This document shows positions 31,173-31,947 of a stretch of 64,000 nucleotides of DNA, one piece after another (the first letter of the stretch is position 1; every line of letters starts with the position of its first letter). Source of the DNA: Maridesulfovibrio sp. (GTDB taxonomy: Bacteria; Desulfobacterota; Desulfovibrionia; Desulfovibrionales; Desulfovibrionaceae); NCBI RefSeq assembly GCF_963667685.1, contig NZ_OY763932.1, positions 310,001-374,000 on the forward strand, read 5' to 3'. The notes under the pieces are model-generated. The model worked only from the letters and a program-made list of their open reading frames with translations, was not told the origin of the DNA and made no database searches. A program made the position numbers and the translations under genes.

Positions 31173-31393
31173 AATATCCCCGCTAATAAATATGATTAAC
31201 TGGAAACAATAGATACAATGAGACAACGTAATATCTACTGTCAGGATTGGAACGTACCGGAAAATTGTAATTGAAAAAAAGATCACAGGCAGGACTGTGA
31301 GAAATCGGACTGAAATGCATTCAGCGGATTTTGTAATTAACCGGAAACAGGGGCGGCTTGTCAAGAGTGGAATATTCTTCCACATTCAATTAA

Positions 31394-31423
31394 CAAGGGA
31401 TACGCGTTGATGCGTACCCCTTG
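31394..31423 (-). terminator. Hairpin after the selenocysteine rhodanese frame
   Basis: A 12-base-pair stem with one mismatch (CAAGGGATACGC with GCGTACCCCTTG) immediately after the downstream TGA at 31426-31428. On the minus strand it is followed by TTAATTG, a weak T-run. Its position supports 31426 rather than 31552 as the true end of the gene. Confidence 0.6.
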
Positions 31424-31425
31424 CA

Positions 31426-31842
31426 TCACTTTCCTTCAACCGGAAAGCCTAGGCGGTGCCAAAGATGCCATCCGCCAAGAAGTGCATTAACATTCTTGAA
31501 TCCCAACTTCTGCAACTTTCGCCCCACACGGGAGCTGGTATATTCGCTGGGTCAAGCGCAATAAATAATAAGCTCTGTATCTTTAGGAATACCAGCTGAC
31601 CATTGCTCTTCCTTTCCGGGCTTACCACGAATGGCGGACTTTATCTTCAGCTCACTGCCACGCCAGTCTGAACCAGTGCGGGAGTCAACGACAACAACTC
31701 CATCCATGCCAAGCTTACGCTCAAGATACTCGCAGGAGACCCGCGGAACATCTGCGGATTCCCCCGAGACAGGAAGGACAATGAAGCTTGCCGCTGTCGC
31801 TATGGCCGCAGCAACAAGGAGTAATAAAATACGCTTACTCAT
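31426..31842 (-). CDS. Secreted rhodanese-like protein with in-frame TGA (predicted selenoprotein)
   Basis: A single-domain rhodanese of 138 residues if the TGA at 31552-31554 is read as selenocysteine (residue 97). Before the TGA: a signal peptide or membrane anchor (about residues 1-28), the CEYLERKL start and VVVDSRTGSDW. The active loop reads YC-A-Sec-PSEYTSSR. After the TGA, the same frame continues as perfect rhodanese sequence (VGRKLQKLGF, ALLGGWHLW, LGFPVE) to TGA 31426. Homologues carry cysteine at this position (YCxCPNE loop), the classic exchange seen in selenoproteins. A hairpin fits the bacterial SECIS rules. GGAGG precedes tandem ATGs; the second (31842) has better spacing. Reading the first TGA as a stop would delete the core and lose the C-terminal half. 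Confidence 0.82.
31521..31535 (-). promoter_or_regulatory. Candidate bacterial SECIS hairpin
   Basis: Downstream of the TGA (minus strand) a 5-base-pair stem GCTCC / GGGGC (one G-U pair) encloses a 5-base loop CGTGT with G at its second position. The loop starts 21 bases after the TGA. Short stem, loop size, early G and distance agree with the published bSECIS consensus rules as I know them. No structure program was run. Confidence 0.55.
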
Positions 31843-31947
31843 CATTACCTCCCGGAATTTAACTGAATATAATTACATCTTAAACACGAATGCTTAAATC
31901 AATAATATCAGATCAAAACAGTAGGACAAGCAAAAAAAGTAAAACGA

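Follow-up and report, generated by a model that had tools for sequence, protein, structure and literature searches.

A small rhodanese gene of the NCBIfam family NF041203, located in a 64,000 nt stretch of a Maridesulfovibrio genome (the window), contains at codon 97 an in-frame TGA at which selenocysteine (Sec) is very probably inserted. An earlier interpretation of the window, made from its letters alone (the sequence-only reading), had predicted a selenoprotein here, and this prediction is supported by the family score of the read-through product, the conservation of the TGA codon in relatives, the presence of selA, selB, selC and selD in the genome and a covarying hairpin downstream. UGA 97 would be decoded as Sec by SelB, tRNA-Sec and this hairpin, which starts 16 nt downstream; the predicted recoding signal, the machinery genes and the conservation of the fold beyond the TGA all emerge from sequence comparison. 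The gene model is hereby corrected, as standard gene calling would cut the rhodanese at 96 residues, and a well-documented case is added to a family without known function.

The reading frame and its family

The minus-strand frame (Table 1) crosses TGA 31554-31552 within IIYCA-(TGA)-PSEYTSSR and continues for 41 more codons to TGA 31428-31426, bearing out the claim of an uninterrupted frame that extends from 31842 to 31426. The read-through product consists of 138 residues, comprising a hydrophobic N-terminus and a rhodanese domain that contains the loop YCAUPSEYTSSR and ends in ALLGGWHLWHRLGFPVEGK. A mechanically generated list of open reading frames ends at 31552, in keeping with the truncation that had been anticipated from standard calling. 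The spacing of the Shine-Dalgarno-like GGGAGG favours ATG 31842 over ATG 31845 as the start codon. The N-terminal segment forms a helix over residues 2-21 of the structure model (pLDDT about 75 there), and the rhodanese is probably exported, which would make it a putative periplasmic protein. The hairpin described after the second TGA is likewise present, having 13 bp between 31424 and 31393 and a folding energy of -22.5 kcal/mol (z -5.2).

Table 1. Features of the rhodanese locus in the window, followed by rhodanese-haem fusions in relatives (given with their locus)
Feature	Position	Strand	Remarks
Sec-rhodanese gene (predicted)	31426..31842	minus	138 codons + TGA stop; Sec = codon 97
Alternative start, in-frame ATG	31845	minus	part before first TGA then 97 residues (96 from 31842)
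TGA codon, predicted Sec 97	31552..31554	minus	same codon in 8 other congeneric genomes
Cys95 TGC codon, probable classical rhodanese cysteine	31558..31560	minus	2 residues before Sec97
Shine-Dalgarno-like GGGAGG	31848..31853	minus	5 nt 5' of ATG 31842, from sequence
Hydrophobic N-terminal segment, putative signal peptide or anchor	31759..31842	minus	from translation and model
Apical stem-loop of predicted bacterial SECIS	31521..31535	minus	GCUCC-CGUGU-GGGGC
13-bp hairpin 3' of true stop, possible terminator	31393..31424	minus	without clear U tract
Membrane-protein-like gene, 448 residues	31948..33294	minus	directly upstream of rhodanese; hydrophobic stretches
Rhodanese-haem fusion	L028:337-1947	minus	U-x-U
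Rhodanese-haem fusion	L086:798-2456	minus	C-x-U
Rhodanese-haem fusion	L089:1872-3542	plus	U-x-U
Rhodanese-haem fusion	L091:801-2438	minus	U-x-U
Rhodanese-haem fusion	L093:1638-3569	plus	U-x-U

When read through the TGA, the protein scores 137.3 bits against NF041203 ('rhodanese_LYCAU, rhodanese-related (seleno)protein'; cut-off 115) and covers positions 8-126 of the 126 in the profile; if cut at the TGA, it scores 73 bits, below the cut-off. Similarly, the match to Pfam Rhodanese (PF00581; cut-off 22.2) reaches 32.5 bits read through versus 13 bits when cut. The Y-C-A-U loop (CxU) of NF041203 is present as IIYCAUPSEYTSSR. Passages of two reviews, PMC13188914 among them, list NF041203 as a predicted selenoprotein family with the motif CxU, the entry in a table of PMC13188914 being 'rhodanese-like form 3, NF041203, CxU' with one Sec. 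Because the family is so listed, the kind of protein is already known, as a prediction, and the assignment of the window's rhodanese as a further putative member of this catalogued family is well supported; no difference from NF041203 was seen, the YCAU loop and CxU motif being shared.

Other rhodanese-like proteins with predicted Sec are more distinct. Forms 1, 2 and 4 in the same part of PMC13188914 are listed with one Sec in UxxS, UxxG and UxxG, and these listed motifs set them apart from the window protein, in which Sec lies two residues past Cys. The selenoprotein TsoB (NF045694, rhodanese/DsbD fusion-like) also has a rhodanese part with Sec, but its Sec spacing is given in that part of PMC13188914 as UxxxxU, against CxU here, and the window protein matches NF045694 weakly (17.8 bits, far under the 805-bit cut-off). 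One further match to the rhodanese was found in its own genome, weak and within a longer frame (39% over 86 residues, E 4.8e-6).

Conservation of the TGA codon

A search of 58 related genomes, the rhodanese's own included, returned some match at E 0.001 in 42, mostly other rhodaneses by score, and the 14 genomes with a match at E 2.2e-14 or better were taken to carry an NF041203-type rhodanese. All nine congeneric carriers, own genome included, have TGA at the same codon, as do four genomes from other genera of the same order (G018, G025, G035 and G052), and G030 has Cys there; beyond the own genome, 12 of the set have TGA at the codon and one more has Cys. The match in G052 (L029) scores 79 bits against NF041203, below the cut-off of 115. 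G046 yielded a weak match with one TGA (E 4.1e-4).

This distribution bears on whether the gene might instead be truncated or a pseudogene, in which the TGA arose by nonsense mutation or sequencing error and everything past it is in decay. The mechanical list of reading frames, ending at the TGA, is what such a gene would give, and 8 of 17 congeneric genomes have no orthologue of the Sec-rhodanese, indicating that it is dispensable. Against decay, the same TGA codon recurs in eight other congeneric genomes and four further genomes of the order, and the downstream hairpin shows compensatory changes (see below). Furthermore, dN/dS in the 41 codons past the TGA is 0.08-0.25 in all 21 pairs, drawn from seven of the nine congeneric carriers, and 0.03-0.21 before the TGA in the 12 computable pairs, the other nine being saturated at synonymous sites, although all these figures are rough, because dS is often above 1. 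On the comparative grounds of TGA conservation, dN/dS and hairpin compensation, a pseudogene or sequencing error was rejected as highly improbable. The specific risk of a sequencing error at 31552-31554, which the sequence-only reading had itself raised, is excluded in practice because the eight other congeneric genomes share the TGA.

In a phylum sample, NF041203 exceeded its cut-off in 61 of 395 genomes. Among the 84 matches listed at or above the cut-off, 75 were counted by eye as having an in-frame TGA (11 with two), eight as having no stop and one as having TAA only, the placement of the TGA within the frame being established in the fetched loci only. The row with TAA only, L106, has this codon in place of the Tyr that precedes Cys95, and Ser where Sec would stand; having no letters at the site, it was dropped from the alignment, which went from 85 rows to 84. 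L056 also carries a TAA further on.

The proposed alignment with homologues placed Cys at the TGA position in several relatives: L026 (YCTC), L046 (YCACPNE), L077 and L090 (both YCSC) and two in L104 (YCAC). Scans of genome and viral contigs found one relative, the Cys form L046; as the search patterns spanning the site specified Cys in place of Sec, these scans missed Sec forms. In L046:4045-5364 (JADLEZ010000284.1, a Burkholderiales MAG), YCACPNE stands at the C terminus of a longer, presumably DedA-like frame that includes hydrophobic stretches. Its genome (G452) contains a pair of strong SelB matches on a single contig, separated by about 3.4 kb. In L092, L096-L100 and L106, Ser takes the place of Sec (CxS, once SxS); these members sit in G249, G272, G294 and G356, which also hold Sec copies, and in G431.

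The predicted SECIS hairpin and the selenocysteine machinery

The hairpin with an early loop G that the sequence-only reading placed 21 bases downstream is found as described, the loop lying 21 nt past the UGA and having the sequence CGUGU, with G at position 2, on a stem of 5 bp (GCUCC/GGGGC) that begins 16 nt past the UGA. The rules for bacterial SECIS quoted in part of PMC13188914 are an upper stem of 4-16 bp, a loop of 3-9 nt with G in its first two bases, a distance of 16-37 nt from UGA to loop, and a minimum free energy of -7.5 kcal/mol or lower. With 5 bp, a 5-nt loop, G at position 2, a distance of 21 nt and -15.8 kcal/mol over 52 nt, the hairpin falls within these rules, and it also covaries, which answers the suggested bSECIS check. 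In fold energy the 52-nt stretch does not stand out (z -1.35; equalled or bettered by 19 of 200 shuffles), and 4 of 12 compared sequences fold no better than their own shuffle mean; the case for the hairpin rests on comparison. No SECIS-type match came up when the locus was scanned against Rfam at E up to 5.

Across the 12 sequences, 98.3% of stem cells are paired and two pairs are changed on both sides. When extended to 68 Sec-type sequences, 13 from the 58-genome search and 55 from the phylum search, the comparison found all five pairs at the exact offset in 66 and G at loop position 2 in all 68, with 99.4% of cells paired and double changes in four of the five pairs. Covariation was 0.346, versus 0.137 in shuffles, with none of 500 as high, and registers of the stem slid along the alignment were at most 58.8% paired. 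The second pair is formed by synonymous third bases, and in the 55 sequences having both an AGY Ser codon and a GCN Ala codon it reads T-A in 34, C-G in 19, T-G in one and C-A in one (Fisher p 1.4e-12, ignoring kinship). Selection on synonymous bases for the stem of the putative SECIS is thus seen.

By contrast, the stem is incomplete in 15 of 16 non-Sec relatives, although these controls are mostly more distant, which alone could cost them the hairpin, and some of the rows (L103, L104 and L105 among them) may be too distant to be true members. The one relative with five pairs, L092, has Ser at the site and retains the loop G, and looks like a recent loss of Sec. The hairpin is incomplete in L096-L100, which also have Ser for Sec. 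Within the window, such a stem with its loop G occurs at the exact place after 8 of the 2609 TGA trinucleotides, and of the 80 frames returned by a motif scan for Sec candidates, 31554 among them, only 31554 was convincing by eye.

These patterns also address the possibility that the UGA is read by near-cognate decoding as a standard residue, Trp or Cys, and not as Sec. Low-level read-through does occur in bacteria, but no observation here favoured it. TGA is also the ordinary stop codon of this same rhodanese gene, several relatives have Cys at the site, and the SECIS-type hairpin is kept in the Sec-type sequences and mostly not in the non-Sec relatives. Ordinary read-through was rejected on these three points, and only a slight chance attaches to it.

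The genome encodes all four components of the Sec machinery that the sequence-only reading had proposed looking for, each over its cut-off: tRNA-Sec (selC) at 82.5 bits (gathering score 47), SelB at 390 bits, SelA at 611 bits and SelD at 335 bits. Matches below the cut-offs occur in control genomes too, and therefore only those above were counted. The SelD gene (L014:1501-2424; G000:C1:2122201-2123124) has its own in-frame TGA, in KAAGUAAK, on account of which the genome's SelD is a probable selenoprotein itself. SelB was found in 54 of the 58 related genomes and, over the cut-off, in all 61 chosen carriers of any form of the rhodanese, Sec or not (55 from the phylum search, five from the 58-genome search and the record of L046). 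As SelB is nearly everywhere, a phyletic test of SelB against the gene is without power; SelB is necessary, not discriminating.

The active-site pair, its relatives and the gene neighbourhood

The loop pairs in the 84 aligned rows are CxU in 55, UxU in 13, CxC in six, CxS in six, CxA in two, SxS in one and CxV in one, counts that are blind to TAA and TAG because frames were split at those stops. Cys or Sec occupies the first position in 83 of the 84, whereas 10 rows have Ser, Ala or Val at the second. The structure model is a rhodanese (mean pLDDT 89.7) in which a strand ends at residue 94, and in HMMER alignments Cys95 falls on the YC of BH2092 and on that of one YnjE domain. Together with the conservation of the first position, these features suggest that Cys95 is the classical catalytic residue and Sec97 an added partner; this is likely rather than certain, because the Cys of the 6mxv chain, when aligned without gaps, comes to lie at position 97. 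The Cys-x-Sec pair that had been claimed is therefore present, as CxU, but it had been described as lying next to the classical cysteine, and the Cys of the pair is most likely the classical residue itself.

The most likely function is a periplasmic reduction or transfer of sulfane sulfur by the Cys-Sec couple. Cys95 would take sulfane sulfur from polysulfide, thiosulfate or a persulfide to give Cys-S-SH, which Sec97, two residues on in the same loop, would attack, releasing sulfide and forming a Cys-Se bond that a periplasmic electron donor could then reduce. The protein would be a sulfane-sulfur reductase or fast-releasing sulfurtransferase, not a simple cyanide rhodanese. These chemical steps are offered tentatively, as a plausible route that may well prove wrong. 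A somewhat less probable alternative is that the Cys-Sec pair serves in thiol-disulfide exchange, peroxide reduction or selenium handling instead of sulfane-sulfur chemistry. In its favour, CxU is a motif of the redox type, and both positions are occupied by Cys or Sec in 74 of the 84 aligned members. Rhodanese loops usually follow the pattern C-x4-R, which YCAUPSEYTSSR does not have. Against such a role stand the plain rhodanese fold and the structure matches of the model, those with names being rhodaneses, sulfurtransferases and persulfide-reductase domains, although several of them are unstudied structural-genomics entries. The named matches include YgaP as well as GlpE (1gmx), the Sud polysulfide-sulfur transferase (1qxn) and an NADH-dependent persulfide reductase (3nt6), the last three sharing the rhodanese fold by structure comparison at 15-20% identity to the window protein. 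These three are not known to be selenoproteins.

The more novel material sits in the relatives, not in the window protein. TGA stands at both loop positions (Y-U-x-U), that of the classical cysteine included, in 13 of 68 Sec-type loci (L028, L055, L061, L065, L076, L084, L087, L088, L089, L091, L093, L094 and L095), a proportion that is not a frequency because double-TGA and no-stop matches were picked on purpose among the phylum loci. Their two UGAs lie 27 and 21 nt from the SECIS loop, both inside the quoted range. On a tree built without the two loop columns, Cys and Sec alternate at both positions, which speaks for the proposed mechanism, and the U-x-U label changes eight times, at least four changes being forced by well-supported branches; this tree rests on 130 columns, leaves 42 of 81 inner branches open, includes several long branches and does not tell U-x-U gains from losses. 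In five loci the rhodanese is joined to a domain that contains eight CxxCH motifs (Table 1). Pfam Multi-haem_cyto and Cytochrome_C554 are both matched by four of these loci (L028, L086, L089 and L093), which also show weak similarity to NCBIfam hydrazine dehydrogenase (48-84 bits, against a cut-off of 900).

A 'tetrathionate reductase family octaheme c-type cytochrome' (TIGR04315) with one Sec is listed in part of PMC13188914; this family gave no match at E 0.001 in the same four fusions, those scanned, and 'UxU' does not occur in the main text of that review. Neither the double Sec nor the haem fusion was found in the passages of the two reviews or in the literature searched, and both may be in print elsewhere. 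The fusion of relatives to multihaem domains points to a role in electron transfer. It is conceivable, if rather unlikely, that the family works as a periplasmic redox module for chalcogens, its classical cysteine being interchangeable with Sec, that U-x-U, with one SECIS, arose or was lost repeatedly, and that some lineages joined it to an octahaem cytochrome domain with distant similarity to hydrazine dehydrogenase. The outcome would be a diselenide or selenenylsulfide site wired to c-type haems for the reduction of sulfane sulfur (or selenium), and the window protein would be the stand-alone C-x-U version of a haem-coupled module. The U-x-U and haem-fused relatives offer a testable lead to function, that of a chalcogen centre coupled to periplasmic electron transfer.

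The membrane-protein-like gene upstream, which has no Pfam or NCBIfam match at E 0.01, adjoins the rhodanese in the window and in all eight other congeneric carriers. It is present in nine of nine congeneric carriers versus three of eight non-carriers (Fisher p 0.009, ignoring kinship). At E 1e-15 it was found in one of 19 genera only, the carriers G018 and G035 being without it, and L025 of G025 has a weak upstream match (32% over 107 residues); the link between the two genes is genus-bound. It may be guessed from the pairing that both genes take part in handling some sulfur compound. Downstream of the rhodanese in the window lie shikimate kinase and chorismate synthase genes. In G001, which lacks such a rhodanese, the membrane-protein-like gene is followed, by eye, by shikimate kinase and chorismate synthase genes, a layout suggesting that the rhodanese alone is absent or was lost. 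The shikimate kinase gene there (L122) seems, by eye, to be split over two frames through a frameshift or assembly error.
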